A DNA stretch of 64,000 nucleotides from Bradyrhizobium sp. CIAT3101. GTDB taxonomy: Bacteria > Pseudomonadota > Alphaproteobacteria > Rhizobiales > Xanthobacteraceae. Both the position numbers and the translations under genes were made by a program. The DNA is taken from assembly GCF_029714945.1 (NCBI RefSeq), contig NZ_CP121634.1, forward strand, positions 4,113,001-4,177,000. Direction: 5' to 3'. The notes beneath the pieces are model-generated. The model made no database searches and was not told where the DNA came from. It worked only from the letters and a program-made list of their open reading frames with translations. This document shows, one piece after another, positions 3,865 to 35,288 of this stretch (within the stretch, counting starts at the first letter, position 1; the number at the start of each line of letters is the position of its first letter).

Positions 3865-3886
3865 GATAATTGAGGGTTATCGAAAG
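3865..3886 (+). repeat. Repeated GATAA-N7-TTATC site, copy 1
   Basis: GATAA (3865-3869), TTGAGGG, TTATC (3877-3881), GAAAG (3882-3886), then TCAG. It sits just upstream of the second recombinase gene, whose start is at 3849 on the minus strand. One of seven copies, all inside the element and in the same orientation. Confidence 0.8.
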
Positions 3887-3924
3887 TCAGAGGGGGCCGC
3901 CGTACTTGACGGCGGCCGTCGTCT

Positions 3925-4749
3925 CTAGTCGAAGCTGTAATTGGAATGGTAATAGCCGACCACGTCGGGGACCGGCCGCCTCGAGAGCCTGGTCAGCGCC
4001 CTGAGGAGATTGTTGCAGTGGGAGGCGCCGAGTGTGTCGTCCTCAACGCCTCCTTCCGTGATGATCGAAAGGAGGAAACTCGCCAGAGCGGCGCACCCTT
4101 CTACAGTGATAGGCACCGCCCGTTCGATCTCTTGCAAGGTTTCGTGCTCAGCGGCTTGCGCGGCAGCATATTCATCGCGCGCCTGCTCGTAAGAAAGAGA
4201 GGACCACACGCGTTGGAAACCTTCGACATCTAGTTGAAGCTGTTTGTGATGCTCTTCTCGCGAGTTTGCGCCAATCCAAGTATCCGCAATGTGCTGGGCG
4301 AATTCAGGGGTTTCGTCGAAGAAGGCGTCGATTTCGGCGGCGCTGATCGCAAATTTGTCTAGCGCCAGCGTGACGCGGGGTTGACGATGGTGTGGTGCGG
4401 GAAGGCTTTCATCAAAACAGTCGATGGCATACCTAGCCCGACCTTCGGCGACGGCCTGCTTTCCGTAGAGCTCGAGCAAACCGAAGATCGGGTCGATTGT
4501 TGTCGTGGCTCTCTTCATGATCTGTCGCCTGCCGACAAGTGGCTGCGACGATTGCAGGGCGAGGGCGGTCGGGTTGGCCTTGGCCGTGGCTGTCTTACTC
4601 ATTGAACTATGCTCCGTCTGGTTGGCCGGCTTTCGCTTGCCGGTGGCTTCATTCGGAGGCGTCTTGCGTGAGCTGGCAACCTTCTTCTTCTTGGAAGAAG
4701 CAGTGTCTCCAGACGGAGTCGTGCTATCGTCGGAATCAGCCTTCGGCAT
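3925..4749 (-). CDS. Hypothetical protein with basic Ser/Lys/Thr-rich N-terminus
   Basis: 274 residues. The first about 75 residues are low-complexity and rich in Lys, Ser, Thr and Pro, and look disordered. The rest is predicted alpha-helical with acidic stretches (FFDETPEFAQHIAD, REEHHKQLQLDVEGF). No catalytic motif or membrane segment is visible. It is divergent from the RHH gene at 4832, and the 82 bp between them contain a perfect 22-bp palindrome. I do not recognise the family; similar proteins are often seen in rhizobial accessory regions. Confidence 0.72.
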   Translation of the reverse strand: MPKADSDDSTTPSGDTASSKKKKVASSRKTPPNEATGKRKPANQTEHSSMSKTATAKANPTALALQSSQPLVGRRQIMKRATTTIDPIFGLLELYGKQAVAEGRARYAIDCFDESLPAPHHRQPRVTLALDKFAISAAEIDAFFDETPEFAQHIADTWIGANSREEHHKQLQLDVEGFQRVWSSLSYEQARDEYAAAQAAEHETLQEIERAVPITVEGCAALASFLLSIITEGGVEDDTLGASHCNNLLRALTRLSRRPVPDVVGYYHSNYSFD

Positions 4750-4809
4750 GACTTACCTCGTGCTCGATGGTTAGAGTCGAGCAGGTGTTCCAGCACTTGT
4801 TCGACTCGC

Positions 4810-4831
4810 GATTTTATGGCACCATAAAATC
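4810..4831. promoter_or_regulatory. Perfect palindromic operator abutting the RHH gene
   Basis: GATTTTATGG and CCATAAAATC form a perfect 10-bp inverted repeat with a 2-bp spacer (CA). Its last base directly precedes the ATG at 4832. The position between divergent genes suggests an operator for the RHH protein itself. Binding there would cover its start codon, and it could also affect the divergent gene at 4749. Confidence 0.7.
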
Positions 4832-5023
4832 ATGAAGTCAACAATAAGTAGCGCTAAAAAATCAAAAAGAGGCCGGCCGCCGGTCGAGAGCGAGGCTATC
4901 AACGTGCGGATGTCTGCCATTGCGCTTAAGGCAATCGATGACTGGCGCCGCAAACAAGCTGATTTGCCTGGACGTCCGGAGGCTATTCGACGGCTCGTCG
5001 AGATTGCGCTGGGCAAAAAGTGA
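4832..5023 (+). CDS. Small ribbon-helix-helix DNA-binding protein
   Basis: 63 residues. A basic N-terminus (KKSKRGRPPV) precedes the ribbon strand INVRMS and two helices (AIALKAIDDWRRKQ, GRPEAIRRLVEIAL), the layout of Arc/MetJ-type ribbon-helix-helix proteins. It probably acts as an autorepressor through the palindrome at 4810-4831. The operator overlaps the place where a ribosome-binding site would be, and I see no good Shine-Dalgarno sequence. No toxin partner is adjacent on the same strand. Confidence 0.82.
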   Translation: MKSTISSAKKSKRGRPPVESEAINVRMSAIALKAIDDWRRKQADLPGRPEAIRRLVEIALGKK

Positions 5024-5109
5024 ATCGGGCAGGTGTCTGCCCGAGATGGCACATCGCCTCTCCTAGGAGGTCGTACCAGTCGGGGCGATAGCACCCCGAG
5101 GCGGCTTGA

Positions 5110-5502
5110 TCAGGCCGCAATCGCTTTCTTGGCGGCTTGTGCAAGAAAGCCGGATCGAGTGAAGCCGTGCTGTTCGGCATAGTGATCGATCTCGCTCAGA
5201 ACGTCGGCCGGAAGAGTGATGTTTACTCGCACGCTCTTCACATCTTCTGCAGGCGCGGGAATGAGCACTGCAACGCCGTCTCTGTTCTCAGTGTTCGCCA
5301 TTATCTCCTCGAGAGAGGAGGGCTCAGGTACAGCTTCGCCGTCTGCTGCCATACCTTCCAGATGAAGGGCCAGGGCTTCTGCGGCCATAGCGCGCGCATC
5401 GTCCAGATCCGTGCCGGCGGTGATCACGCCGGGAAGATCAGGAAACGAAACACCATAGTCGCTGTCCGCGTCTTTATGGATCAGTGCAATATAGTATCGC
5501 AT
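5110..5502 (-). CDS. hicB: HicB-family antitoxin
   Basis: 130 residues. The N-terminal HicB partial RNase H-like fold (YYIALIHKDADSDYGVSFPD, then LPGVITAGTDLDDA) is followed by a C-terminal ribbon-helix-helix domain (VRVNITLPADVLSEIDHYAE, SGFLAQAAKKAI). It neutralises HicA and represses the operon. It follows hicA by 46 bp on the minus strand, the usual toxin-first order. The palindrome covering the hicA start is its likely operator. Confidence 0.93.
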   Translation of the reverse strand: MRYYIALIHKDADSDYGVSFPDLPGVITAGTDLDDARAMAAEALALHLEGMAADGEAVPEPSSLEEIMANTENRDGVAVLIPAPAEDVKSVRVNITLPADVLSEIDHYAEQHGFTRSGFLAQAAKKAIAA

Positions 5503-5548
5503 GTGAGTTCCCCTCCTTGGGTGGGCCGGTGGCCCTCTCTATGCGGTG

Positions 5549-5737
5549 TCATTTCAGTTTCAGGTTGGCTTGCTTCTCGATGTTCTTCAGCGTCCCAATC
5601 GGAATGTCCCGCTTCGGATGAGGGACCGTGACGCGGCCCTTCTTGGTCGGGTGTTTGAATTGAATGTGGCTGCCTTTCTGGGCAACCTGTTCCCATCCGT
5701 CGGCGTTCAGAGCTTTGATAAGGTCAGCCGATTTCAT
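5549..5737 (-). CDS. hicA: HicA-family mRNA interferase toxin
   Basis: 62 residues, the usual HicA length. It has the dsRBD-like fold with catalytic His24 in GSHIQFKHP and the conserved end VPHPKRDIPIGTLKNI. It cleaves mRNA in a ribosome-independent manner. No Shine-Dalgarno sequence is seen. A TTGACC/TACAAA pair upstream on the minus strand would put the transcript start at or next to the ATG, so the transcript may be leaderless. First gene of hicAB. Confidence 0.93.
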   Translation of the reverse strand: MKSADLIKALNADGWEQVAQKGSHIQFKHPTKKGRVTVPHPKRDIPIGTLKNIEKQANLKLK

Positions 5738-5758
5738 ACGTATTTGTACACACGTATG
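5735..5758. promoter_or_regulatory. Candidate hicAB operator
   Basis: CATACGT (5735-5741) and ACGTATG (5752-5758) form a perfect 7-bp inverted repeat with a 10-bp spacer that overlaps the hicA start codon and the likely -10 element. HicB RHH domains bind such dyads, so it is the likely autoregulatory site. Confidence 0.65.
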
Positions 5759-5990
5759 GAGCGGGTGGTCAACGCATTAATACACACCGTCTCTCCAATC
5801 GTTCCGTCCTACGTCGTGGGGAGGCCCTGATTCGCCCGCTTTGGAATGACGCGCGGGTAATCGGATGAACCTCGTTTCTCGGTAACGTCCTGATATCGCT
5901 TAGATATAACGTTATAGGCACGTTCATACTTGATTTTTTATAGAAAAAGGACGATGCACTTCAGTAGCGTAGCCACCTAAGGGGCAGGCA

Positions 5991-6683
5991 TTGGATCAGC
6001 CGTCTATTGAGCGAGCGCGGAATATTCTCCTTCGCGATCTCGATCCTGACTTTGTGGAGAAAATTGCTGTCGAGTTGGGATGGCAATACGACGGGCTTTA
6101 CGAGGAACTCGCGAACGATTCCGCCCAGCTCGACCATTCTAGAGAGGAAGAGTTCAATCGACGCAGAGCTGATTGTGCAAAACGCGCGATTGCTCGAGCA
6201 TGTCAGCAACACGGGATTCCGTTCGAAGAACGTCGCCTTGCGTGCAATGGTCAATACAAGCTGCTCGCGAAGATTGGCCGGGTAATCTTGATCCAGGAGC
6301 CGATCTTGACCTTGGATGATCATCCCGCCGTTGCTGACTATAAGATCGAACTGTCGGACGTGCACGGTTTTGTTCGACAACTCGAGCTCGATCTTGGAGA
6401 TCAGCCGCATCGGATCCGTGATTGGAGTGGTTGCGTGCTCGCAGTCCTTTTGCATGGAGCCGCAGGCCCGAGGTTTAGCCGGCAGGACAAAGCGCTCGGC
6501 AGGGCGATGCTTGCTATTCCCGATGCCGCATACTCGCACTGGACCACGCGATTGGACCTTCAGACAATCGCAATGTTTGGTCGCGTCTTGCCAAATGAAG
6601 CCGATCGGGACATTGAGATCGCCCAGGAAGACCATGTGAGAGTTACGCCGAAGCGGCGCAACGATAAAGCGGAATTCGGTTAA
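5991..6683 (+). CDS. Unknown partner of the XRE-ImmA/IrrE protein
   Basis: 230 residues from a TTG start at 5991, chosen because AAGGGG lies a few bases upstream; the stop overlaps the next start (TAATG at 6681-6685), so the two genes are coupled. The protein is acidic to neutral and soluble, with a helical N-terminus (ERARNILLRDLDPDFVEKIA) and a central beta region (YKLLAKIGRVILIQEPI). No catalytic motif is recognised. By analogy with XRE-COG2856 pairs it may be the regulated or toxic half of a two-gene module; this is inference. The approximately 250-bp gap upstream is AT-richer and likely holds the promoter. Confidence 0.72.
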   Translation: MDQPSIERARNILLRDLDPDFVEKIAVELGWQYDGLYEELANDSAQLDHSREEEFNRRRADCAKRAIARACQQHGIPFEERRLACNGQYKLLAKIGRVILIQEPILTLDDHPAVADYKIELSDVHGFVRQLELDLGDQPHRIRDWSGCVLAVLLHGAAGPRFSRQDKALGRAMLAIPDAAYSHWTTRLDLQTIAMFGRVLPNEADRDIEIAQEDHVRVTPKRRNDKAEFG

Positions 6684-7900
6684 TGCCTGTTGGACTGCAA
6701 GCTTTCAGAGGAAAACGCCTTCGTGAGGCGAGGCTTGCTCGAGGCCTCTTCATGAATGCACTTGGAGATATGCTCGGTGTTACCGGGACTGCGATCTCGC
6801 GCTATGAGGATGACATCGACAAGCCTCAACACGATCGGGCGGTCGCGATTGCTAGGCATCTGAATTTTCCTCTTGAGTTCTTTCTCCAGCCGGAGTGGGC
6901 AGAACGGCCGCAAATTGTCCATTGGCGCTCGCGTTCGGCGGAAACCAAATACGCGCGCGAAATGACTGAGCAGCGCATGATTTGGATGTGCGAGCTCTTC
7001 TCATATCTTGAGCGGGAAGTGAATTTTCCCGTCTTGGACCTGCCCGATTTGAAGTTGCCAGACTTCCGAGCGATCACGTCTGCAACGATCGAAGCGGCGG
7101 CCGAGACGCTAAGGAAGCATTGGAAGCTTCGGGATCTGCCGATCCCCGATGCATGCCTGGCCTTGGAGAACGCGGGAATTCCTGTCGTAAATCTAGAAAT
7201 TACTTCTGAAAAGCAGGACGGCTTTTGTTTTCATTCGGAGTCCTTGGGGCGACCGTTCGTCGGCATCAACTCGCTGCACATCAGTGCCGCTCGGGCTCGG
7301 TATGACGTTGCTCACGAGCTCGGCCACATTGTGCTTCACCGAGGCGTGACTTTCCAGCAATTGCGGGATCCACTCCTAAATAAGCAGATCGAACAGCAGG
7401 CTCACCGTTTCGCAGGTGCCTTCTTGTTCCCGAGAGAGGCGTTTCGTTTTGAGGTGAGTCGCCCGACCCTCGATTATTTTTGCGCACTTAAGAAGCGGTG
7501 GGGAATTTCAATTGCCGCCATGATTTACCGTGCGTTTGATCTCGGAATGATTGATGGAGAAGAACGGAGCATTCTCTATCGAAATTTGGCCAGGCGTGGA
7601 TGGCGTGGACCGCTGCAAGAGCCTTTCGATGGTCCCTCTGAGATGCCAATCGAACGGCCGAGGATGATCCGCCGCGGCATGCGGGTTGTTGTTGAACTCG
7701 GCACTAGCAAGGCGGCCATCAAAGCTGCACTGAATCTTCCCGAAAAAGAGATTGAGCAGATCGCGGGCCTGGAGCCAGGCTTCTTTCGTCCTGTTGCAGA
7801 GCTCCACAACCTTGCAGTGGCAAAGCGGCCAGCCCTTAAGGCCGTCGACGTCGAAAGTGGCGAGGTGATCGAATTTCCGCACGCTACAAAGCGATCATAG
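6683..7900 (+). CDS. XRE-family regulator with ImmA/IrrE metallopeptidase domain
   Basis: 405 residues. The N-terminal helix-turn-helix (about 8-65) contains RLREARLARGL and GVTGTAISRYE. The zinc peptidase domain carries H211-E212-L-G-H215 followed by downstream residues (QAHRFAGAFLFPREAF) typical of COG2856/DUF955. In ImmA and IrrE this domain cleaves or controls a repressor. Here both parts are fused, as in many mobile-element regulators and COG2856-type toxin-antitoxin units. A TAATG overlap couples it to the gene before it. It may be the element's lysogeny or stress switch. A copy of the repeated site lies 11 bp after its stop. Confidence 0.9.
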   Translation: MPVGLQAFRGKRLREARLARGLFMNALGDMLGVTGTAISRYEDDIDKPQHDRAVAIARHLNFPLEFFLQPEWAERPQIVHWRSRSAETKYAREMTEQRMIWMCELFSYLEREVNFPVLDLPDLKLPDFRAITSATIEAAAETLRKHWKLRDLPIPDACLALENAGIPVVNLEITSEKQDGFCFHSESLGRPFVGINSLHISAARARYDVAHELGHIVLHRGVTFQQLRDPLLNKQIEQQAHRFAGAFLFPREAFRFEVSRPTLDYFCALKKRWGISIAAMIYRAFDLGMIDGEERSILYRNLARRGWRGPLQEPFDGPSEMPIERPRMIRRGMRVVVELGTSKAAIKAALNLPEKEIEQIAGLEPGFFRPVAELHNLAVAKRPALKAVDVESGEVIEFPHATKRS

Positions 7901-8390
7901 CTTGGGTGCCGGTAAGCCCAAATTATCGAAAGCTTGCAGAGTCGGCTGAACGCTGGCGCGAGAAGGCTCAATTGAGCCTTGGATCGATAGCCACACACTC
8001 CCCCGTCAGAAGTGATTTTAGGGTGCGCTCAACCGGAGCGGGATCGCAAAGCCAATTCCCGCTGTTGAAAGCGAATGGCTTTGTGAAGAATTCTCCCGTA
8101 TGATGTCCCCTATGCACGGTGCGGGTGCTCGGCTCGAGCATTCAGAGGCGCGCGTGATGAGAGCGATGGCTCTCGTGTAGCGAGGCGCTGCCTCAATTGG
8201 TCCGCGGCGGTGCGGACAGACCGGGATGTTTTCCCAAACAGCGTACGATGCGTTTCCAATTGGAAAGTGCGTGGGCGAGGCGATGCAGTTGCGTCGCCTT
8301 TATCCGCGGGGCTAGGCCGGCCAGCCGACAAGCCGAGCACCACACTCGGTTGCCTCGCGTTACCATGTGGTCCGCCATGTGGAGGCAGAC
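7901..8390. other. Non-coding gap with AATT-centred palindromes
   Basis: No convincing gene is visible in these 490 bases on either strand. The region holds one copy of the repeated site (7911-7932), an 18-bp perfect palindrome AAGGCTCAATTGAGCCTT (7963-7980) and a 14-bp one, TTTCCAATTGGAAA (8253-8266). A strong ribosome-binding site, GGAGG, near the end belongs to the gene at 8391. Confidence 0.6.
7911..7932 (+). repeat. Repeated GATAA-N7-TTATC site, copy 2 (left arm GGTAA)
   Basis: GGTAA (7911-7915), GCCCAAA, TTATC (7923-7927), GAAAG (7928-7932). The left arm has one change from the consensus. It begins 11 bp after the XRE-ImmA/IrrE stop codon. Confidence 0.7.
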
Positions 8391-9519: not shown

Positions 9520-9526
9520 GAATCCG

Positions 9527-9847: not shown

Positions 9848-12020
9848 CGACGCATTTGCTCCGCTTGGAGAAGGGCAATCGTCGTCGCGGCGGTCTCGAT
9901 CCGAATGGCATTCGATCGTGCCAGTGCCCGACGATGCGCCGCGGCCGCCGGCATCTCATTCCCGCTTTGGCAAGCCGGCCGGCACCTGGACGTATCGTGA
10001 TGAGGCGGGGCGGCTTCTCGGCTTTGTACGACGCTTCAATACCGCGGACGGAAAGCAATTCCTCCCCCTTACATTCGGTCGCGTCACGGAGGACGCAAAG
10101 CCCGAGTGGAAGTTCAAGAGCTGGCCCGGCAAACGGCCGCTGTATGGGTTGGATCGGTTGGCCGAGCGGCTACAGGCGCCGGTGCTGGTAACCGAGGGCG
10201 AGAAAGCTGCAGATGCTGCAGCACAGCTTCTGCTCGACATGGTGGTCGTCACCTCTCCGAACGGATCGAAGAGCGCGTCGAAAGCAGACTGGTCGACGCT
10301 GCGCGGGCGAGCAGTGACGATCTGGCCGGATAGTGACGCCGCCGGACTCCAATATGCTGAGGACGTGGCGAAGCTGGCGCGAGCCGCCGGTGCTGAACCC
10401 ATCACCATCATTTCGCCTCCGCCTGGCGTGGTCACAGGCTGGGATGCTGACGATGCGCTGACCGCTGGGTGGACATCGGCGCAAGCCGCTCAGCTCGTTG
10501 CCGATGCGCGACTTGCTCCCAATGGTGGCGGCGCCGGAGATGCTGGCGATAGCGGCCGGCGTCGGTCAACGCAGAGGGATGTCGTTATCGACCTGACCGA
10601 CTGCTGTGAGTTTTGGCACGACGCGAACCGGCTGGCATATGCGACGTTTCCTGTGAACTCGCATCAGGAAAACTGGCCGCTCAAATCCCGCGAATTCCGA
10701 ATGTGGCTGTCGGGTCGATATTATCAGGCTACCGGGCGGGCGATCGGCGGGCAGTCTCTGGAGGACGCGATCAGAATTCTCGAAGCGCGCGCCGTGCATG
10801 ATGGACGCCAGTACAAACCTTTCACCCGGGTAGGGGAGCACGCTGGCAAGATTTACCTCGATTTATGCGACGCGAGATGGCGGTCCGTTGAGATCAACAG
10901 AAGCGACTGGCGAACAGTCGTTGCGGCGCCCGTCAAATTTATGCGGCCGGCTTCGCTGCGGCCGATGCAAGAGCCCGAAGCAGGTGGAATGATCGAAGAG
11001 CTGCGCTCCTACCTGAACGTGCCTGAAGATCAGTGGATGCTGATTGTAGGCTGGCTTGTGGCCACGCTTCGCCCGAAGGGCCCGTACCCGATCCTGGTGC
11101 TGAACGGAGAACAGGGCTCGGGTAAGTCGATGGCCTCGCGAATGCTGCGCGAACTCGTCGACCCGAGTGCTGCGGCAATCCGGTCGGTGCCGAAGGACGA
11201 CCATAATCTGATCGTCTCGGCTTCGAATAGCCACATCCTCGGCTTCGACAACCTATCGAATGTGCCTCCCTGGCTGGCAGATGCTCTGTGCCGGCTCTCG
11301 ACCGGAGGTGGATATGCTACGCGAACGCTCCACACGGATCGGGATGAGACGATCTTTGAAGGGCAGCGCCCCATCATGCTGAATGGCATTCCGCTTCTGA
11401 CAGATCGGGCCGACTTGGCTGACCGTGCCTTGACGGTGCACCTGCGCGCCATACCGGAGGGCGAGCGTCAGCCCGAGGACGAGATCTGGGCAAACTTCGC
11501 GCGTGCCCGCCCGCGGTTGCTGGGTGCCCTTTTGAGCGCGATGTCGGCGGCGTTGCGCAACCTGCCACAGACGAAGTTAGAGCGGTCGGGCCGGATGGCC
11601 GACTTTGAGAAGCTCGTGACAGCAGCGGAATCCGGTTTGGGATGGGACGCGGGCAGCTTCCAAAAGGTCGTGCGAGCGAATAGGGAAGAGATAACAGAAT
11701 CTGCATATGAGGCCGACTCGGTCGCCGTGGCGATCGGCAAGGTCGTCCGGAGGGACTTCCCTGATGGGCTGACGTGCACGGCTACCGAGCTGCTGACCAG
11801 GCTGAACGCCTCGGATCTGGTCTCGGATGGGGTTCGAAAGCAGCGGAGTTGGCCGACAACTGCGCAAGGGCTCGGCAACCGCATTGATCGCATCTCGCCG
11901 CTGTTGAAGTCTCGAGGCTTCAAGGTTGAACGCCGGCACTCTGGATCGAGAACGATTACGATCGTGCCGCCGCCGGAGCCCGCCACCAACGAGGAGGAGG
12001 AGAGCGATGTCGAAAGATGA
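9837..12020 (+). CDS. TOPRIM primase-helicase
   Basis: 727 residues from ATG 9837, which overlaps the preceding stop; an opening 42 bases further upstream is less likely. The N-terminal half has a TOPRIM fold: E120 in VTEGEKAA and D165/D167 in WPDSDAAG. The C-terminal half is a P-loop helicase-like ATPase with Walker A GEQGSGKS at 424-431 and a probable Walker B/sensor region (SHILGFDNLSNV). It probably primes and opens the element's origin, for which the iteron region at 13078-13298 is a candidate. Such proteins are common in phages and satellites that replicate on their own. Confidence 0.88.
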   Translation: MNDNDAFAPLGEGQSSSRRSRSEWHSIVPVPDDAPRPPASHSRFGKPAGTWTYRDEAGRLLGFVRRFNTADGKQFLPLTFGRVTEDAKPEWKFKSWPGKRPLYGLDRLAERLQAPVLVTEGEKAADAAAQLLLDMVVVTSPNGSKSASKADWSTLRGRAVTIWPDSDAAGLQYAEDVAKLARAAGAEPITIISPPPGVVTGWDADDALTAGWTSAQAAQLVADARLAPNGGGAGDAGDSGRRRSTQRDVVIDLTDCCEFWHDANRLAYATFPVNSHQENWPLKSREFRMWLSGRYYQATGRAIGGQSLEDAIRILEARAVHDGRQYKPFTRVGEHAGKIYLDLCDARWRSVEINRSDWRTVVAAPVKFMRPASLRPMQEPEAGGMIEELRSYLNVPEDQWMLIVGWLVATLRPKGPYPILVLNGEQGSGKSMASRMLRELVDPSAAAIRSVPKDDHNLIVSASNSHILGFDNLSNVPPWLADALCRLSTGGGYATRTLHTDRDETIFEGQRPIMLNGIPLLTDRADLADRALTVHLRAIPEGERQPEDEIWANFARARPRLLGALLSAMSAALRNLPQTKLERSGRMADFEKLVTAAESGLGWDAGSFQKVVRANREEITESAYEADSVAVAIGKVVRRDFPDGLTCTATELLTRLNASDLVSDGVRKQRSWPTTAQGLGNRIDRISPLLKSRGFKVERRHSGSRTITIVPPPEPATNEEEESDVER

Positions 12021-13638: not shown

Positions 13639-13713
13639 CATTGAGCGGTTCGCCTCGCGATGTGCGCGGTCTAGAAAGGCATCGACGCGACTAGAAGTGC
13701 CGGCCGAGCATCC

Positions 13714-13735
13714 GATAATCGGGTGTTATCGAAGG
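13714..13735 (+). repeat. Repeated GATAA-N7-TTATC site, copy 3
   Basis: GATAA (13714-13718), TCGGGTG, TTATC (13726-13730), GAAGG, then TCAG. It sits 36 bp upstream of the first virion-block gene, at the junction with the replication block. Confidence 0.8.
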
Positions 13736-16237: not shown

Positions 16238-19200
16238 TGGCTGATGATGTCGCTGGTTTGTTGGAGACCGGGAATATCGATCTCAATAGTCGTCCTGTCG
16301 TTAAAAACGACGACGGTACGATCTCAACGGTGCGCTCGATCGGCGTGAATGTCGATGGAAAGGAAACGTTGATCCCGACCGTGAGCGACGATGGTCGCAT
16401 CATGTCGAATGACGAGGCTGTCGCACAGTTTAGGAGCACTGGTAAGCACCTGGGCAAATTCGATAACCCCGAGAGTGCCACGCGCTATGCGGAGAGCCTT
16501 CACACTCAACAGGCGGCGCGCTACGCGCCGGCGCCGAACCCGACTGTGCCGAACGAGGAAGGACCATCGTCGAGTAATCACTTTGACCAGTTCGATACGG
16601 ACCCGGACGCGGGCGAGGCTGGACTGATAGAACGGGCCAGGCTCAACGCGGTCCATTCGTTCTATCGCGGCACGCTGAACGGCTCGACGACGTTGGCTGG
16701 GCTCGCGAAGGTCGTTGGTGCTGGAGAAAAGATCACGGAGGAACTCCGACAGTCGGCCGCTATGGCTCAAGGCCGAAACGCATCTGCGCCGAGCTCTGCA
16801 ATGGTGGACTTGCCGGCACTTTCCGACGGAGAGGTTGCCAAATGGCGGGACGAACAAAGATCGAAATACGCGGCCATTATCGCTGATCTGGCTCGATACG
16901 ACGCCATCCGTCCCTGGGACACAACCGTCGAAGGTATGGCCGCATTCGGTGGACAACTCGCCGGCGGCCTGCTTAGCCCTGAGAACTTGCTTGGCGGCGC
17001 GGGAAAGGGAGTCAACCTAGCCGTTCGGACGCTCTCGGCGGCCGTTAAGCAGGGCGTCATTACGGGCATCTTCAATCCTATCGTCCAGGGTTTCGAGATT
17101 GCCGGTGGAGTGCGGAAAAACTACAGCCTGTCGGATACCGGTTGGGCGATCGGAACAGGCGCCGTAATCGGCGGAGGTCTGCACGTTGGAGGCGAGCTGC
17201 TATCCTCGACGCGCATCAAGATTATCCATGCCGGCCTGGCGAGCGAAGATCCGCAGTTCGCGAGCGCAGTTACTGAGAGCGTGCAACCTACAACCTTTGA
17301 AAGTGGGCTGGAGACCGGTGCAGGTGGCGCCGTGTCGGAGCAGGCTGCCACGAGCGAGACCGCGACCGGAGGAGTGGCGAGCGACGCGGCATCGGTTGGT
17401 CAGGCTCGGGATCAGTCCGCGGGGGCTGCCGGCATCCAGCCTGAGGGTCAAACTTCTGATAAACCCCCATTATCGAAAGTGTCAGATGGATCAGCTCGGC
17501 CAGTTGATCTGCCTAGCGGAGGTGCAGGGAAGAGCGAACCTACGGCGCATCGGCCGCCGCCGGAAGCTCCTGATCCTCTCGATCTCGCGATGGGCGGGGA
17601 ATTGTCCGCGGAGCGAGCTCGCCAAGTTGCAGTTGATCTCGAGCAGCAGCAGCGTCGTGTTGAGGACGAGATCTTCGGCGATCGAGCTGACGAGTGGCGC
17701 AAGCTTCACAAGCAGTCTGATCGTGCCTGGGATAACGCCCGAGACGACGAAGCGCGGACGCTGGACGCTCAGATCGACAAGCTGGAACGTGAGGTCGGGC
17801 TCTCGGACGCAGACGAAAATTGGCTGAACGGGCAGGGGTGGTCCGAACACTCGGTCGCCGAAAATTGGCACGATCTCGCTCACAATCTTCAGGATGTCGA
17901 GAACGGTCGGGAAGATGCCATTGCCGCCGTTGCGTCGGCAGTGCGCGAAATTCCCAAGGCGCACGATTGGTCGAGCATGAATTCGCGGCAGCGTGAGTCC
18001 GTGCTGACGATCTTGACCGCGCTAAATGAGGAAAAGAAGGCCGGTCGCGATCCGCAAGAATTTCTCAAGGAAGCATTTCGAGAGCGGGTCCGGCGCTACG
18101 GTGGCGGGCATGACGCCAGAGAAATCGTCGACGCGCAGATGCGCGAGCTCGCCGATTTTCTGTCGGCCCCGATGGAGCGCTCGGGTGCTCCCCAATCACC
18201 TGTTGCTCGCTCGGCTCCCGCGCCAGTAGCTCGCATCGGAGCAGCTGGGCTGCCTGGTGATGCGGTTCCCAATCTGATCCGCCATAGGGTGGCAGTAGCC
18301 GACGGGCGCTCGATTGACGTCGAGCCGCGGGTGATCGAGGCCTCGGACCTGAAGGCATCGTCGGATGCAGGTTTCGAGCAAACTCTGCAGCCGCGCGACC
18401 GTGACCGGGCAGCGAGCCAAGCGCAGATCGCCGATATTGCCAACCGCCTCGATCCTGAACGTTTAGGCCTGTCGTCTGAGGCGGATCGCGGCGCCCCCAT
18501 CGTTGGGCCCGATACAATGGTGGAAAGCGGTAACGGCCGCGTCATGGCCATCCGCCGCGCCTACCAGGAGGGAGGGGAAGCCGCGCAGCGATACCGCGAA
18601 TGGCTGTCCCAGCAGGGTGTTGACCTTTCCCACTTCCGGGAGCCTGTGCTGGTTCGCGTCCGCCTCACTGAGTTGTCGCCGGAAGAACGGCAAGCCTTCA
18701 CGGTTGCGGCAAACCAGTCAGCTTCCCTTGGCCTCTCCGCGCCGGAACGCGCACTGGCCGACGCTCGCCTGCTTCCGACCGAAATCCTCGATCTGATCCG
18801 CAACGCCGACGACCTGGGCGCGCTGGCGAACCGCGATTTCACTCGCGCGTTCGTGGCGAAGCTGCCGCCGACCGAGCGCGCTGCCATGCTTGATGCTGGT
18901 GGAGGGCTGTCCGCCGAAGGGCTCACCCGGATTCGAAACGCCGTGCTGGCCCGCGCCTACGGCAATGCGCATGTGCTCACGCGCATTGCCGAGTCCCTGA
19001 CCGACGACAGCAGGAGCATTTCGAACGCCCTCGTCTCGGCTGCGCCGCACTGGGCGAAGATGCGGGCCGAAATCGAGGCGGGCCTCGTCCGCGCCGACAT
19101 GGACCTGACGCCCGAGCTCCTGGAGGCGGTACAGCGCACAGCGGATCTGCGAGCGAAGGGCACGAAGCTCCAATCGCACTTTGATCAACAGGATGCTTTC

Positions 19201-25010: not shown

Positions 25011-25023
25011 GAGGGAGTTGCAC

Positions 25024-25482
25024 GTGAAACGTCAATCCCGCAGCGAAGCATCGAGAGAGCGATCTCGAGCGAAAGCCAATGAGTACTGGGCCGATCCGGC
25101 CGCTCGCGCCGCGCATAGTGAGAAAACGAAGGTGCGCATGGCCGACCCCGAGGTCCGCGCAACCATCAGCGAGCGCACACGGGCCGCGATGGTCCGCCCG
25201 GAGGTAAGGGGGCGGGTGATCGACCGCAGTTCGGATCCCAACTGGCGTCAGCGGGTCAGCGAGAACACAAGAGCCGCCATGGCGGACTCCGAAGTGCGGA
25301 AGCGCATCAGCGATCGAACGAAGGCGGGTATCGCGGCCAAAGCCATGCAGGAGAAGGACCAGCTCCGGCTTTTGGAAGACGCGTGGGGGACCAGCTCGAC
25401 GTCTGTCAAGCGCCGTTTCTTAGAAATGTGTTTATCCGGATCGGATGCCGGCGACGCCGCGGTCGGTCCAAAGTTGCGGTAA
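25024..25482 (+). CDS. Repeat protein resembling NUMOD3-type DNA-binding modules
   Basis: 152 residues from GTG 25024; AGGAGG nine bases upstream favours this start over a TTG at 25018, which would be too close. A motif of about 20 residues repeats: ADPEVRATISERTRAAM, then RPEVRGRVIDRSSDP, then ADSEVRKRISDRTKAGI. Such arrays resemble the NUMOD3 modules of homing endonucleases, which bind DNA. The C-terminal 40 residues have no repeat. Its stop codon forms part of a repeated site (25478-25499). Confidence 0.65.
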   Translation: MKRQSRSEASRERSRAKANEYWADPAARAAHSEKTKVRMADPEVRATISERTRAAMVRPEVRGRVIDRSSDPNWRQRVSENTRAAMADSEVRKRISDRTKAGIAAKAMQEKDQLRLLEDAWGTSSTSVKRRFLEMCLSGSDAGDAAVGPKLR

Positions 25483-25499
25483 AGCCTGATTATCACGAG
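25478..25499 (+). repeat. Repeated site, copy 5 (divergent: GGTAA, ACGAG)
   Basis: GGTAA (25478-25482), AGCCTGA, TTATC (25490-25494), ACGAG. The arms and the 7-base centre fit, but the GAAAG extension is replaced. The left arm contains the stop codon of the preceding gene. This is the least certain member. Confidence 0.5.
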
Positions 25500-28130: not shown

Positions 28131-28612
28131 GTCAAATTCCCCTTTTTGTCGGGATGCGAGGTGGGCTGCTGACGGTGCTCGCGGCGCTAAAGGTCCTGAG
28201 TAGTCTCCCTTTCGACTTGTTTGATCAGTGGTGGAGTGTCAATCGTGATAATTACTGTTCGTGACCAGTCCGCTCTGTCGGTTGCCATCATTCGGATCGA
28301 TGGAGGCCCGTCCTAATTGGGTTCTCGGGGTATCGGGCGGCTCGTCGGGCGCGTCGAAATTTTTTCTGTATAAGCCGCAATCATCCTCCGGAAATGACGG
28401 CGTTGGCCGGCATTGTGCCTATTGGGCGGCTGCGGAATCAACTGCTTGCCAGTGGAGGGCATATTACAATCCGCGTGAGCAGAGCATGAGGTCAGATGGA
28501 GAAGCGGGCCAGTTGCCTCAAGGTACGGCCTCTTACGGACCCAGCCGCCAGCATCCGGTAACGTCCGATTATCGGGGCCCAGGGAGCGGTTGGACCGTGG
28601 CGAAGGTGAAGT
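28131..28612. other. Intergenic region without a supported gene
   Basis: A plus-strand open frame (28261-28686) runs through part of this stretch and into the PIN gene on the other strand, but its composition is unlike a protein family and it has no ribosome-binding site. Nothing else clear was found. Confidence 0.5.
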
Positions 28613-31600
28613 TCAAGCTGCGCCGTTTCGCTTCCGGGGCCTTCGCGTATCCGGCCCTTCCGGAGAGGCTAAAAGGTCTCTCGTAATGAAATGGCCGCGT
28701 AGCCAGACGACAAGATACTCAGACAGTTCGCCGCTGCTCCGACCGATGATGTCGTAAAGCAGTGGTCGCCAATCCCGGATTCGATGGGCGAGGTACGCCT
28801 CGAGCGCGAGACCTGTGGCCGCCCGGGTCTTGTGCCGGGGCAACATCGCTTGAGGTCGCCAAGCAGCGTCCGGTGACCACAGCCTGTCAAGGAACTCGCG
28901 GAGTACCGCGCGATGGGAGCGCATCTCCGCTGTCGGACCGGCGAGGAATTCTAGCGCGCAGCGCAGGCCAGGGAAGTCCTCGCCGTCGTGACACGCGATG
29001 GCGTAAAGGAGCGGGGCGCTCAGCGCGATGTGCTCGTGCGCTCGCTCGGAAAGTCCCGCCATGGCAAGCGCGTAGCTCGCAAAGGACAGATGCTGCGCTC
29101 GGACCGTCTCGAACAGAGCGACCTGCAACCAGATCCCGTGACATCCGACCACCTCAGCGGACACATCGCGGTAACGCTTGTCGTCGGACAGCAAAATCGC
29201 ACCAGTCTCGCGCGCGAGAAAGGCAGCATCGAGGAAACGGCTTCCACCGACACCGAGGACCGTCTCCGCCGGCTCGGATATGATGTCGGGAACGAGGACC
29301 GGGACGATGTCGCAGTTTGCAAGGATGGTCTCACGCACGCGGGTGAGGGCTGCGATCTGACGGTCGCGGAACTCGTCAGTGACCTTACTCCGGTAGAACT
29401 GACCATCGTGAAAGCCGATGGTCATCTGCTCGCGCCCCCGCCCCTCATTCTCGCGCACGATCATGCGGTCGATCATCGCGAGCGTCGAGGCGGGCGTGCG
29501 CAATGTGCCGAAATAGGCCTTAAGCACCGGCAGGACGTCGATGTCGGCGGCGACCCATGCGGTGTATGGATCGAGGACTGCGCCCCGGTCACGATATCGT
29601 TGTGCCAGGGTGGCGGCACGAGCTCGTTCTCCCGCGGACCCGGCGCAGGTAATGATCCGACCGCCAAGTCGCCGGACGAATTGGGCGAAGCCCACCACGT
29701 CAGCGCCGCCCCCGCGCGCGACGGCGGCGAGTGGCAGGGCCTCTTCCATGTAGAGCCGCGCGATGCTTGCATTCTGCTCGGCACTGCGACGCACGATGTC
29801 GAGCACCTTGTCGACATTGTCCTGTCCGACCGTGAAGCGCGCTAGCCCTGGTGTGCCCGGGAAGCGTGTCTCGAACTCCTCGAGCACGCGGTGGTACAGA
29901 TGCAAATACTTGCTGGCGACCTCGGTGACGGTCCAGGTCTCGTCCTCCATGCCGAGCTTGGGCAGCTGGAAAGTCTGCCCACGGCGAAGGCCGCTCACAC
30001 GCGCTGCCATGCCGGAGGCGGGGGACAGGACGCGCAAGCCGAAAAAGTCGCCGCCTTCGTCAATGATGAAGCTCTGTTGCAGGCCGTCCGGTCCCTGGAT
30101 CGAGACGTATGCGCCGATGCCCGCCGCCGACATTACGAACATCGGGTTGTGGTCCTGGAGCAACAGGCCGAGGCCCGCATAGCCGAGCACGGCGCGCGGG
30201 TTATCGGCATGGCGCCGGACCAGGTCGTAGGCGACCGGATAGGCTCGCTCGGGATGTCCCTCCCGCATGACAGATTGTGCGAGCGCCATGATGAGCTCGG
30301 GTGGGCCGCTTGAGCGCTCAAGATCGAACCCGCGCAGCACGGCGCCGGCGCCCGCCGCGTCGTCGGAACGCCGGAGCGCCTCGACGAGACGCAAGGTGAC
30401 AAAGGCATCGGTGGGATCTTCGCCATGGAGGCGACGCAGCAGGTGGACGGCCTCAGGCCGCCTGTCGAGGTCGAGCAGAAGACTGGCGTGAGCGCGCGCG
30501 ATCCCGTGCAGGTGCCGCAATCTGTCCGGCAGGCCGTCAAAATAGGCGAGATTTCTCGGACGATGCGGATGCTCGTTCGCGTGGGCGATCGCCAGTCGCT
30601 CGTGCTCGGAGTCAAAGCCATCGAATGGTAGATGGCTGTCAAGTAGCCGGATCACGGTCGCCGGCGAGCCAGCCCGCGCCGCCTCGTGCGCGACCATCAG
30701 CCGGGTTGCAAGGTGGCTGTCGTCCGGCACTGCTTCGACGGCCGCAGAAAGGGCCTGTTCGGACACCTGGTCCAGTCCGAGCATGGTTGCGACTTGCGCG
30801 ATCAGGATGAGCCCCCGCGGGCTGTCGCGCGTGGCCGCAAGGAGCGCTTCGAGCGGCACTGGATCCGCGGCGCTGCCGTCGGCGGGCCTGCCCGCCGCCT
30901 TGATCGGCGCCAGGGCCATCGCCGTCTCGGCGACCCGCTTCTCGCTGTCCGGGACGTTGGCCTTGCTGAACTCGGTCGCTGCTTTGGCCCAGTCGCCGTC
31001 GTGAAGCGCGATGACGCCGGCATGGAAAGCGAGGTCGGGATCATCAGGCGAGAGCGCGATCAAACGGCGCCCAAGGTCATCCTGATTGAAGCTGAGGGCG
31101 ACCATCACGGCGTTGAGAAGGATGGCCGGATCGGTGATCGCCTCGTCGGCGATGCGCGCGGCGCGGGCGAGCGCGGCATCGCGATCATGCAGCATCCGAT
31201 AGGCGATCATTGCGTTGGCGAGCGTCTGGGCGGCATCGTCGAAGCTACTCTTCAACAGCCATGGCCGGGCCCGCCAGCTGGCATCGAGGACCGCAGCCGC
31301 AGCAGCCAGGCGCTCGCGCTGATCCGTCGTGAAGATCTGGCTGCGCTGGACCTCCTCGTCGTGCGTGATCGCGTCGACCTCGGCGAATGCCACGAGCAGC
31401 TTAAGGTGTTCGGACGCGGGGAATCGCGCGAGCGCCGATTTGACGAAGTTCCACCATTGCGGGCCGAGGTTGCGGCCGCGCAGGAACACCGCCTGGCCAA
31501 CGATCACGGCTTCCTTGTCGCGAAGCGCCTCCGGAACGTCGTCGAGCCCGTCGGTGACGCTGGCGACCCGGGCGGCGATCTGGGGCAGATAGGAGGCCAG

Positions 31601-32077
31601 CACCTCGTTGGTCGGATCCGCCGCAAGTCGCTCGCATCCGAAGCGATAGGCCTCCTCGGAGTCGCCGCGCAAGTGCAACGCCAGGGCACGGTTGGCGACG
31701 GCGCGCGGATCGTCGGGCGCTTCGTCAAAGGCCTCGATCAGCCAGCGGACCGCTTCCGCTCCATCTCCGCGCGCGAGGTGCTGCAGGCCGATATTGGCCT
31801 TGGCCCGGTAGCGAATCGTGGCGCTCGCGCCCGCGGGAAGCTTGTCGAGGAAGCTGTGAAACAGCTTGAGACTGGTGTCGGGGTCGATCTCTTTGGCATC
31901 GTCCCGCAGTCGGTCGAGCTGGTCGGAAAGATATTGGTCGTGCGGCGCGACATTTGCGGTCTCCGGGCCAATCAAGACTTGGCGCAGCAACCCGAGGTTA
32001 CGCTGGAACACCAAGTCGAGCTGCGTTTCGTCAAGACCGTAATTGTTGACGAAAACGTTGTTGCCGGCGTTCGCCAT
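28613..32077 (-). CDS. TPR-GreAB-C-like-PIN conflict protein
   Basis: 1154 residues. Residues 1-12 are Asn/Gly-rich (ANAGNNVFVNNYG). About 50-620 are helical repeats of TPR type (YRAKANIGLQHLARGDGAEA, ALALHLRGDSEEAYRFG, IALHDGDWAKAATEF). About 640-730 resemble the GreA/GreB C-terminal domain (GLQQSFIIDEGGDF, FQLPKLGMEDETWTVTEVAS). About 780-980 look like a PIN nuclease fold with acidic residues in VLDPYTAW, RFLDAAFL and ILLSDDKRYRD. This architecture matches the described TPR-GreAB-C-PIN group of bacterial conflict systems. The PIN domain would be the RNA-cutting effector. It follows the gene at 32149 by 71 bp in one operon. Confidence 0.75.
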   Translation of the reverse strand: MANAGNNVFVNNYGLDETQLDLVFQRNLGLLRQVLIGPETANVAPHDQYLSDQLDRLRDDAKEIDPDTSLKLFHSFLDKLPAGASATIRYRAKANIGLQHLARGDGAEAVRWLIEAFDEAPDDPRAVANRALALHLRGDSEEAYRFGCERLAADPTNEVLASYLPQIAARVASVTDGLDDVPEALRDKEAVIVGQAVFLRGRNLGPQWWNFVKSALARFPASEHLKLLVAFAEVDAITHDEEVQRSQIFTTDQRERLAAAAAVLDASWRARPWLLKSSFDDAAQTLANAMIAYRMLHDRDAALARAARIADEAITDPAILLNAVMVALSFNQDDLGRRLIALSPDDPDLAFHAGVIALHDGDWAKAATEFSKANVPDSEKRVAETAMALAPIKAAGRPADGSAADPVPLEALLAATRDSPRGLILIAQVATMLGLDQVSEQALSAAVEAVPDDSHLATRLMVAHEAARAGSPATVIRLLDSHLPFDGFDSEHERLAIAHANEHPHRPRNLAYFDGLPDRLRHLHGIARAHASLLLDLDRRPEAVHLLRRLHGEDPTDAFVTLRLVEALRRSDDAAGAGAVLRGFDLERSSGPPELIMALAQSVMREGHPERAYPVAYDLVRRHADNPRAVLGYAGLGLLLQDHNPMFVMSAAGIGAYVSIQGPDGLQQSFIIDEGGDFFGLRVLSPASGMAARVSGLRRGQTFQLPKLGMEDETWTVTEVASKYLHLYHRVLEEFETRFPGTPGLARFTVGQDNVDKVLDIVRRSAEQNASIARLYMEEALPLAAVARGGGADVVGFAQFVRRLGGRIITCAGSAGERARAATLAQRYRDRGAVLDPYTAWVAADIDVLPVLKAYFGTLRTPASTLAMIDRMIVRENEGRGREQMTIGFHDGQFYRSKVTDEFRDRQIAALTRVRETILANCDIVPVLVPDIISEPAETVLGVGGSRFLDAAFLARETGAILLSDDKRYRDVSAEVVGCHGIWLQVALFETVRAQHLSFASYALAMAGLSERAHEHIALSAPLLYAIACHDGEDFPGLRCALEFLAGPTAEMRSHRAVLREFLDRLWSPDAAWRPQAMLPRHKTRAATGLALEAYLAHRIRDWRPLLYDIIGRSSGELSEYLVVWLRGHFITRDLLASPEGPDTRRPRKRNGAA

Positions 32078-32148
32078 GATGACGACGCCGGGAGCAGCTC
32101 GATCCGTGTTGGTGACCGGCGCGCTGTTTGGACCTGCGAGCGCGCCAG

Positions 32149-32610: not shown

Positions 32611-32768
32611 GAATCCTCCCTGGGTTGAAGGGCAGATAGTGGCAACCGAGAGTGAATGGAAGGACTTTTGAGTTCTCGTCAACAACACCTTAGATCGAGG
32701 CGCTGTTGACGCGAACCGAGGAGTTGGTACTGGGCCTTACTTGTGTGTGATGATCTCTGATGGCATTC

Positions 32769-32790
32769 GATAATGCCTAATTATCGAAAG
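32769..32790 (+). repeat. Repeated GATAA-N7-TTATC site, copy 6
   Basis: GATAA (32769-32773), TGCCTAA, TTATC (32781-32785), GAAAG, then TTTCGG. It lies between the start of the conflict operon (32610, minus strand) and the gene at 33077, again at a module border. Confidence 0.8.
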
Positions 32791-33076
32791 TTTCGGGCAC
32801 GCCTTGAGATCATCCGGATCGTGCTGCTGGACTTTCCTCGTTGGTGCTTTCGCGGCTTGCGCCGGGGCCACATCGCAGCGCTGCTGCTAGATGACAAAGT
32901 CCTGCGCAATCTAGCGGTTGGTCGCGCGCCGACACCGTCATCGTCCGCGGCTTACAGATCGTGATGATCGTCCAGCCGCCTGCTTGACCGGGCCCGGCCG
33001 CGGTGGGAAACCGCCGAGGGGCGCCTGGAAGAGAGGAAGGCGCCAGCTCGCCGCGGCAGATCAGCAGTCGCCTCTT

Positions 33077-33349: not shown

Positions 33350-33443
33350 CGAATGAAGCGCCTGGCGCTGCTAAGGAACCGTAAACCTGATCCTGTTCGT
33401 ATTCCGCGGTCGCAATGGTGAACTCACTGCGACGCATTGGCGG

Positions 33444-33476
33444 GAAGCCCGCTAGCTGACGCACCTGGCGGGCTTC
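33444..33476. terminator. Rho-independent terminator
   Basis: GAAGCCCGC (33444-33452) and GCGGGCTTC (33468-33476) form a perfect 9-bp stem between two converging genes; the following TTCTA is only partly T-rich. Confidence 0.7.
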
Positions 33477-33501
33477 TTCTATTCCAGGCCGAAGCGCCGG
33501 T

Positions 33502-33600
33502 TCACGCTGGCGGGCCTCGCATCACGATTATCGATAGGACGATAATCAAGCCGGCAACGGTCAGCGCCCAAGCCGCAGCGCGCAACAACCACGGCCGCAT
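33502..33600 (-). CDS. 32-residue membrane peptide
   Basis: A short frame from ATG 33600 with a very good Shine-Dalgarno sequence (AGGAGGGATCTATG). It encodes one hydrophobic span (WALTVAGLIIVLSIIVM) after a short basic N-terminus (MRPWLLRAA). The peptide looks like a toxin-like or membrane-regulatory peptide. An inverted repeat (GATTATCG, ATAGGA, CGATAATC) overlaps the span codons. It is easily missed by gene finders because of its size. Confidence 0.55.
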   Translation of the reverse strand: MRPWLLRAAAWALTVAGLIIVLSIIVMRGPPA

Positions 33601-33831
33601 AGATCCCTCCTGAGCTCGAATCCCTCCTACCCACAGGAGTGTCTTCGACGTCCGCGGAATGGTTCAATCGCAACAAAACAGGGCGCCGCCGGCCTGTCTT
33701 CATCCCGGCTACTTTCGACGTCAGATAAATTCAGGCCGGCTGAGCGGGCAGGGCTGCCGGCATCGTTTTAATTCCATTCCGAGCACCCATCTCTTGACTC
33801 TACTAGGAGCTGCAATGCTATCAGTGTCCGG

Positions 33832-34263
33832 ATGGGAGTGGGGGATGTTAAGATTGCCGACCGAGCCAGCAAGGCAGCGCGGATGGTTCGCCGCGCCAAG
33901 ATAGCTATTGGTGCAGCTCTCCTCCTTCCGGTGATCCTGGTCTCGGTCAAGCCGACCACGTTTGATCTCACACCGCGTCCTTACTTTGCGCCGCAGCCCG
34001 GCTACAAGCCCATGAAAGACCTTCTGAGCTGGCCTCCGAGCTCGCCAGAGTTCAGCTATTTCGTCGAGGACGGTTTCAGGTTCATAGGGTCTCGGTCGCC
34101 GGAGGAGTCTGGCTTCATCCGGGGGCAAGTTGACCGAGATCGAGCAGCTTGGTCGGGTTGGCGCGAGAGACTGGGCCTCGTCCTGGTTTTGGAGGTGTGC
34201 CTGCTTTGGGTGGCCGGCGCGCTATGGTTTGTTTTCAGGCTGTTTGACCGCCGCCATGGTTGA
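33832..34263 (+). CDS. Two-span membrane hypothetical protein
   Basis: 143 residues. One transmembrane segment lies at about 22-40 (AKIAIGAALLLPVILVSV) and another at about 113-137 (LVLVLEVCLLWVAGALWFVF). The loop contains PRPYFAPQPGYKPMKDLLSW. There are no catalytic motifs. The start is uncertain; several in-frame GTG codons are nearby. I do not recognise the family. Confidence 0.55.
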   Translation: MGVGDVKIADRASKAARMVRRAKIAIGAALLLPVILVSVKPTTFDLTPRPYFAPQPGYKPMKDLLSWPPSSPEFSYFVEDGFRFIGSRSPEESGFIRGQVDRDRAAWSGWRERLGLVLVLEVCLLWVAGALWFVFRLFDRRHG

Positions 34264-34281
34264 CCCTCCCGGCTCGGGGAA

Positions 34282-34506
34282 TCATGCCTGCGTGCCTCTT
34301 TCTCCAAACCAGCCTTCGATCAGGCCGCTCATGATCCGCGCGAACATCCTCGCGCAATCGAGCGCTTCTTTCCCGACCATCTGCTGGCGCAGCCGACGGG
34401 ACGGAAGATCCTCGAAATAGAAAAAGGCGCTTCGGCGATCGTCAGCGAAGCGCACCTCGAAACTGCCCGTTCCGGGAACGCGTTCGTGCTTGATGAGACG
34501 GATCAT
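34282..34506 (-). CDS. Conserved small hypothetical protein
   Basis: 74 residues, typical of a small rhizobial family that begins MIRLIKHERVPGTGSFEVRF and continues with FFYFEDLPSRRLR. It is soluble, with a beta-hairpin start followed by helices. The role is unknown. It lies in the cargo block with other small genes. Confidence 0.72.
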   Translation of the reverse strand: MIRLIKHERVPGTGSFEVRFADDRRSAFFYFEDLPSRRLRQQMVGKEALDCARMFARIMSGLIEGWFGERGTQA

Positions 34507-34609
34507 TCCGTCATCGAAACGCAGCGCCGGCGAGAGTCAAATTGTCGATTCCTAGCGGCTCGAACGAGAATGAGCTACTGCCAGTCGTGGGTGCCGAAGG
34601 CTTAAACTG

Positions 34610-34647
34610 AAAAAGCCCCAGCCTCACAAAGGACAGTGAGCTGGGGC
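34610..34647 (-). terminator. Rho-independent terminator
   Basis: On the minus strand GCCCCAGCTCAC pairs with GTGAGgCTGGGGC and is followed by five T residues. It ends the transcript of the gene at 34739-35158. Confidence 0.8.
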
Positions 34648-34738
34648 AAGTCACCTTCCGGCCCGGCATCACCCCCGGGCCATCGGGAAAACTTGGCAAT
34701 GCAGCCGGCGTTCCTAAACCACGGAGCGCTCCGGACGC

Positions 34739-35158
34739 TCATCGCCATGTCACCGAATAGGTTCGCCCATTGGTGTTTGGGTCGCTGTTGTCGCTGGCCG
34801 AGAAGATGATGCCCGAGCCGCTGAAATGTGAATAGCTTCCGCTCGCGATTTTTGTGGGGCTGTGCGCCGGTCCAAGCTGTCGTCCATCTTCAAACAGTAT
34901 GATGGTTGATCGGGTCGTCCCCCAACCAGTATCGGCGTATCCGTCGAGCGTTGGCATCAGAATTTGATAGGCAGTGTCGTCGAGCTTGCGGAAAGGTCCG
35001 GCGAGCTGCGCAGCCTTCGGCGGGTCGGGTTTCGGGACGTAGCTGTAATGCAGATATACCGCGCCCGGGAAATAGAGGGCTAGCAGTGCTGCGACTATTA
35101 TGGTGGCCTGCGAAAATGTCAGTACCCCCCAACGCGACGAAACCATAGCGTCCCTCAA
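34739..35158 (-). CDS. Single-span membrane hypothetical protein
   Basis: 139 residues with an N-terminal transmembrane segment at about 17-37 (QATIIVAALLALYFPGAVYL) and an outer domain rich in Gly, Ser and Thr (DDTAYQILMPTLDGYADTGW, GSYSHFSGSGIIFSASDN). There is no lipobox and no enzyme motif. The in-frame Met at 5 is an alternative start. A terminator follows at 34610. Confidence 0.6.
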   Translation of the reverse strand: MRDAMVSSRWGVLTFSQATIIVAALLALYFPGAVYLHYSYVPKPDPPKAAQLAGPFRKLDDTAYQILMPTLDGYADTGWGTTRSTIILFEDGRQLGPAHSPTKIASGSYSHFSGSGIIFSASDNSDPNTNGRTYSVTWR

Positions 35159-35266
35159 CCTTTAAGTTTCGCCAGTCCTACCATCACAACCAGACCGCGA
35201 ACAACGGCGACTTTCGGCTCGTGATGCTGGATGATTTAGTCGCGCGTACGGAGCGCATCTGCCCTC

Positions 35267-35288
35267 GATAATCCCCAATTATCGAAAG
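35267..35288 (+). repeat. Repeated GATAA-N7-TTATC site, copy 7
   Basis: GATAA (35267-35271), TCCCCAA, TTATC (35279-35283), GAAAG, then CGTCAG. The nearest genes are on the minus strand (35158 and 35316). The core is a nearly perfect dyad and among the cleanest of the seven copies. Confidence 0.82.

Follow-up and report, generated by a model that had tools for sequence, protein, structure and literature searches.

The 64,000-nucleotide stretch analysed here (the window; positions 4113001-4177000 of the 9.37-Mb single-contig genome of Bradyrhizobium sp. CIAT3101) holds a 37.7-kb element that is integrated in tRNA-Pro, is bounded by exact 54-bp direct repeats, carries nine sites of the form GATAA-N7-TTATC and encodes a tyrosine recombinase, P0001. 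On balance we favor the view that the nine sites are binding and crossover sites of P0001, lox-like but with differing spacers, and that they would be used between copies or relatives of the element. Comparison between genomes establishes, at the level of sequence, the pairing of this recombinase family with this type of site, the intact catalytic residues and the retention of position-specific spacers in one relative, the element of another Bradyrhizobium (G116). Binding, strand exchange, the rule for the spacers and block exchange are what we infer from this. The parts are not equally firm: we are confident that the sites would belong to P0001, it is likely that they are competent for recombination, and their use for block exchange is put forward tentatively.

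Nine matches to GATAA-N7-TTATC with at most one mismatch lie in the window, whereas shuffled sequence had 0.33 on average and never as many as 9 in 100 trials. Eight of the sites have GRTAA/TTATC arms, and a scan of spacers from N3 to N11 with GRTAA/TTAYC arms returned N7 only, at 8 places, which bears out the earlier statement that exactly seven bases separate the arms. The ninth, at 19651, is weaker and has one change in its right arm (ATATC); the same 17 bases are kept in G116. A profile built from eight of the sites scored the nine at 18.9-31.8 and the next-best place in the window at 11.2. At score 18 a profile built from the sites had no match in 37997-64000, and 200 shuffled elements gave a mean of 0.035 and at the largest 2. 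The exact 22-bp form GRTAA-N7-TTATC-GAARG occurs six times in the genome, always within the element; one mismatch added two matches, both of them sites already counted but read on the opposite strand, and the backward-read control gave 2 + 1 matches genome-wide. The original prediction had placed seven sites, at 3865, 7911, 13714, 17458, 25478, 32769 and 35267, and none outside the element. All seven are present there and the confinement to the element held, but the true number is nine, 28557 and the weaker 19651 having been overlooked. Their placement at module borders stood only in part, as the open reading frame (ORF) 16234-23472 contains 17458 and 19651, and site 25478 runs over the stop codon of the ORF that ends at 25482.

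The arms are near-palindromic. Leave-one-out scores prefer the plus reading at eight of the nine sites by small margins (0.3 at 19651), 35267 prefers the opposite reading, and the assignment with all sites in the same orientation is not the most informative one (28.89 versus 29.60 bits). Among the eight stronger sites the spacers have a common polarity (6.9 bits), whereas random sets gave 3.84 ± 0.59 and none of the 2000 came up to the observed value. When the spacers are turned to agree in this polarity, all eight have T as the first base of one strand, and most follow TYNGGNN. Thus, the seven bases between the arms, earlier described as variable, do not vary freely. Nor could we uphold the claim that all sites face the same way, as the arm scores are marginal, 35267 is reversed and the spacer polarity is mixed. 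All pairs of spacers within the element differ by at least two bases.

Tyrosine recombinases have the catalytic signature R, K, HxxR, H/W and Y. In P0001 the corresponding residues, with roles assigned by alignment to Cre together with this general signature, are invariant in 16 aligned sequences. Its closest named homologs are Bradyrhizobium proteins; homologs at 83-88% include those named from B. zhanjiangense, Bradyrhizobium sp. SSUT18 and CCH5-F6. A core of the GATAA-N7-TTATC type lies upstream of recombinase homologs at 56 of 177 loci, compared with 78 of 3540 control windows; a generic search for inverted repeats upstream of 160 homologs gave a modest excess over the control, and the core-motif test was used instead. 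The close relatives checked have one site per recombinase gene, whereas the element here has nine and that of G116 seven. The studied member of the family is IntA of Rhizobium etli, which recombines two replicons, the plasmids p42a and p42d, each with one of the sites attA and attD. The available part of PMC4928290 describes attA and attD as 23-bp sequences in which two palindrome arms flank a central region, and as differing by one base without effect on recombination. In sequence records p42a has the core GATAA-GCAGTAC-TTATC and p42d has GATAA-GCATTAC-TTATC, and the difference falls in the spacer; the attA sequence printed in that part of the paper is the p42d copy. The p42a integrase (1339-2487) is taken to be IntA because it adjoins the published attA primers, and P0001 is 28% identical to it. 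The two systems share the recombinase family, the core and a site upstream of the recombinase gene. Unlike attA and attD, the sites described here are nine, with differing spacers, in one integrated phage-like element.

Arrays of such sites recur, although few of the loci examined carry more than one site. In Rhizobium sp. 32-5/1 (L277), a search that allowed up to three mismatches found seven N6 sites, with spacers that are all different, at 253035-264657 around the recombinase homolog, and one further site elsewhere in 5.6 Mb (control, 3 + 3). This array is independent of the one in Bradyrhizobium and its sites are in mixed orientation; in 26 genomes of the same genus its recombinase matched only itself at E 1e-60. 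Two other loci (L379 and L249) have three sites each and one (L257) has two. Across 265 Bradyrhizobium genomes the site pattern occurs at 17 places in 11 genomes, the present one included. Since the backward-read control also matches many genomes, most isolated places say little. The exact pattern also matched at least 120 stretches of viral contigs, and each of the 80 stretches listed had one match, as chance would give. Upstream of the match in seven Pelagibacteraceae homologs (L273, L279, L286, L289, L294, L297 and L304), at a distance of 45 bp, is a near-perfect palindrome, ACTAATGATAA-TTAATTG-TTATCAATAGT, that varies slightly; its spacer is identical in all seven, unlike the variable spacers elsewhere.

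The original prediction took the sites to have an Xer-type layout. A tyrosine recombinase is indeed the most likely owner, but it would be the element's own P0001 and not XerCD. The inner ATAA/TTAT motif is also found in Xer sites, and there are plasmids that carry several Xer sites differing in the central region (available part of PMC11705084). Acinetobacter pdif/dif (xrs) modules resemble the element in this respect, and that same part reports intermolecular recombination or fusion of Acinetobacter Xer sites only between closely related central regions. These modules depend on the host XerCD and have 6-base centers, whereas the spacer here is 7 bp, no GRTAA/TTAYC site at N6 was found and the arms track the recombinase family of the element. 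Moreover, no such exact site occurs elsewhere in the genome or in 11 recombinase-less stretches with relatives of the replication protein. A role as pdif-type sites for XerC and XerD of the host is hardly probable.

An operator or stoperator family for the XRE-M78 regulator (6683-7900) had been offered as the alternative. The regulator is encoded by the element, and L5-type repressors likewise use many dispersed sites in a temperate phage (PMC9283540, available part). According to the same source, however, L5 stoperators are asymmetric 13-mers that follow transcription, whereas the sites here are near-palindromic, have mixed spacer polarity and in some cases stand beside genes on the minus strand. 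The same type of site is found beside recombinase genes in other genomes, and G116 has seven sites and no XRE match by tblastn (E 1e-3) in the 60 kb fetched. The XRE regulator was rejected as the binder for this last reason, and operators of this kind are very improbable.

It is also conceivable, although we consider it unlikely, that P0001 is mainly a DNA-binding silencer of the integrated element, with evenly spread operators, and that it recombines DNA, if at all, only as a minor activity at a single site. MrpR of SPbeta, a recombinase-fold protein with a multicopy motif (SPBRE) dispersed in a prophage, would be the model, and the even spacing of the sites is the main point for it. According to the available part of PMC10516654, MrpR has lost the catalytic residues, whereas P0001 retains all of them, and IntA is described as a recombinase (PMC4928290, available part). 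A position just upstream of a gene start is seen for only part of the nine sites. Silencing and recombination could both hold.

Even spacing would also suit dispersed partition sites, such as the centromeres of phage N15, or other sites that organize DNA. On two of the three small plasmids fetched, a ParA gene is found no more than about 1 kb from the recombinase gene, and the giant protein of the element has a ddrB-like domain of the ParB superfamily. On the other side, the element proteins scanned, which do not represent all ORFs, include no match to a partition ParA or ParB, and the type of site tracks the recombinase. We regard this explanation as quite improbable.

The reading of the sites as crossover sites of P0001 can be set against the related element. 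In the search for close relatives, 2 of 265 genus genomes matched at E 1e-120, namely, the present one and G116, whose element (contig C4) apparently lies in tRNA-Gln (22-bp repeat plus tRNA). Over aligned residues the identity is 88% for P0001, 86% for the replication protein and 82% for the giant protein; the protein comparison leaves out the counterpart of 25138-25482. The integrase and the excisionase-like, HicB, XRE, pectin-lyase-like and TPR-PIN proteins had no tblastn match (E 1e-3) in the 60-kb stretch. Seven places in G116 score at least 17 with the site profile (next, 14.0). Six of them pair by place with sites here, with spacer identities of 7, 6, 7, 7, 5 and 7 of 7 (four identical), whereas the flanks of several paired sites are near the unrelated baseline of 0.67. 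Two of the six are in coding DNA, where protein constraint could be the cause of the conservation. Site 13714 has no counterpart at the same place, and G116 has a weak one at a different position, 23903 on its reversed stretch; 28557 and 32769 sit in DNA without homology in G116. The counterpart of the interval 25478-35267 (9.8 kb) in G116 is 3.3 kb of other DNA, homology being limited to site 35267 and 23 bp of its left flank. Some homology breaks do not fall at sites, and the proposal that every break lies at a site was rejected.

Two features near site 9 may be mentioned here. About 23 to 27 bp to its left (35240-35266) are nearly identical in G116 and in a further genome, G209, whereas the DNA beyond differs; in both, this flank has the direct repeat GCGCAT-GGA-GCGCAT and it may be an accessory site. 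A short sequence nearby (34282-34593) is found again close to isolated sites in G198 and G240 (L050, 19658-19743; L051, 3925-3970; L053, 19191-19361), which hints at a small site-associated module.

Within the giant gene, agreement with G116 at fourfold sites was 33/122 for 16234-17458, 207/371 for 17458-19651 and 295/642 for 19651-23472, so that the middle block differs from the one on its right (P 0.003) and from the one on its left (P 4e-8). Like the others in this comparison, these P values are post hoc and carry no correction for the scan. Over 14200-23200, the strongest changepoint fell at 19590-19670 in seven of eight window sizes and ranked second for the largest; with 500 bp on each side, the Fisher P value at 19659 was 8e-6. 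In this one pair of elements, the pattern suggests a past exchange at 19651.

Several observations weigh against the crossover reading. Only a single close relative is available for comparison, and homology with it breaks off the sites at 2717 and 4781. A changepoint at 17458 is confounded, as the left side is poorly aligned (P 0.01 at 17466). At third positions of identical residues the top changepoint is 17835 (two windows) or 17285 (one), and 19620-19670 ranks second, fourth and second; the post hoc character of the divergence P values counts here as well. Two sites, 17458 and 19651, are inside one gene, and spacer polarity opposes 3865 and 13714 to the other six stronger sites. Spacer pairs differing at one or no base numbered 0 against 3.0 expected from column frequencies (P 0.065), and significance of the mutual difference was dropped. 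As searched, 121 of the 177 homolog loci have no upstream core, and arrays were found in few. Finally, the sites are more evenly spaced than chance would give (coefficient of variation [CV] 0.33, P 0.002). So are those of G116 (CV 0.26, P 0.004), but these are partly common to both elements, and those of the Rhizobium array (P 0.03). Even spacing is not explained by the recombination model, as crossover sites do not need it.

Phage P1, with its Cre/loxP system, has one loxP per genome, with 13-bp arms and an 8-bp spacer. In the model proposed for the Bradyrhizobium element, two P0001 monomers would bind the two arms of a site and exchange strands across the 7-bp spacer. Because the nine spacers differ at two or more positions, sites in the same copy should recombine poorly and the element would not be deleted piecemeal; each site would instead recombine with the like-spacer counterpart in a second copy or a relative. 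This spacer rule is a proposal for the present element, and IntA tolerates one spacer mismatch (attA versus attD). Likely uses would be the resolution of dimers after replication, the fusion of coresident elements and the exchange of a block between two matching sites. A more speculative extension, which we consider possible but rather doubtful, is an addressed cassette exchange, in which the spacers would serve as position addresses, coresident relatives would swap blocks in register and self-deletion would be prevented.

The element is larger than the extent first given for it (3865-35288). Its limits (Table 1) follow from the repeats and from G198, a genome of the same species, in which the left flank 1-312 aligns at 99% and the right flank 37943-39000 at 98%. 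There the two overlap by exactly 54 bp and the element ends tested have no match at that locus, so G198 holds the empty site. The integrase presumably acts at tRNA-Pro. With its integrase, excisionase-like gene, primase/helicase, weak match to a small terminase subunit and two large phage-type proteins, the element resembles a phage satellite or a reduced prophage. Among the ORFs scanned, which were not all ORFs of the element, there was no match to a portal, major capsid or large terminase protein; in the fold search, families absent from the result list are not counted as excluded. The DNA of 3000-27000 had no match in phage records, no relative of the replication or XRE protein was found in viral contigs, and a promoter scan of 3600-14000 gave 2, compared with 3.4 in shuffles. 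Further genes recognized among the scanned ORFs encode a HicB-like antitoxin, an SLT protein, a weak pectin-lyase match and a Mutator-family transposase. The transposase gene (36022-37436) is near the right end, and its DNA is 91% identical to a copy in G240. The TPR-PIN gene (TPR-GreABC-PIN family) is likely cargo; it is flanked by sites 7 and 8, lies on the opposite strand and falls in a region whose GC content rises to 66-67%.

Table 1. Sites and main features of the element (window coordinates; in the text, sites are named by the first base of the 17-bp core)
Feature	Position	Strand	Spacer	Remarks
attL	259..312	+		54-bp repeat over 3' part of tRNA-Pro(ggg) 228-305; exact direct repeat, tRNA call, empty site in G198
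Integrase, tyrosine recombinase-like, 368 aa	1327..2433	-		PF00589 26.9 bits, just below curated cutoff 27.1
Small excisionase/HTH-like protein (weak)	2408..2659	-		PHROG matches E 2.6e-4 to 8.5e-3
P0001, Cre/IntA-like tyrosine recombinase, 340 aa	2827..3849	-		R162 K196 H288 R291 H314 Y323 present
Site 1	3860..3886		TTGAGGG	Core 3865-3881 starts 15 bp upstream of P0001 start codon; spacer identical in G116
XRE + M78 regulator	6683..7900	+
Site 2	7906..7932		GCCCAAA	G116: GCCCCAA
Primase/helicase-like replication protein	9924..12020	+		phrog_239 E 1.4e-19
Site 3	13709..13735		TCGGGTG	Upstream of gene 13772
Giant phage-type protein, 2412 aa	16234..23472	+		ddrB-ParB and LPD38 domains; contains sites 4 and 5
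Site 4	17453..17479		ACCCCCA	Inside ORF 16234-23472; core 17/17 bases identical in G116
Site 5	19646..19672		CAGGCAA	Weaker, right arm ATATC; inside ORF 16234-23472; at top fourfold-site changepoint
Site 6	25473..25499		AGCCTGA	G116: GGCGTGA; overlaps stop codon of ORF ending 25482
Site 7	28552..28578		CGTCCGA	Missed in the original prediction
TPR-PIN gene	28613..32077	-		PF20698 E 3.7e-25
Site 8	32764..32790		TGCCTAA
Site 9	35262..35288		TCCCCAA	Spacer and about 23 bp of left flank same in G116 and G209
attR	37943..37996	+		Second copy of 54-bp tRNA-Pro repeat; exact repeat, empty site in G198

Among the papers listed in searches by title and abstract opening, mostly of non-subscription literature, none was on an element-encoded recombinase of the IntA/Cre type with an array of sites, which does not establish absence from print. 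The mosaicism of phages and satellites is usually put down to random or homologous recombination. If the addressed exchange is true, even parts of one giant virion gene would be swapped in register, and virus mosaicism would gain a dedicated site-specific route; with a private recombinase and addressed sites, some at genes and some inside them, it would be partly programmed and open to direct test. This would carry the pdif idea over from the Xer enzymes of the host to one that the element itself encodes, and phage-like elements would be linked to the IntA/attA system that rhizobial plasmids have. The nine sites would then be a natural collection of crossover sites, all for the same recombinase but with differing spacers.

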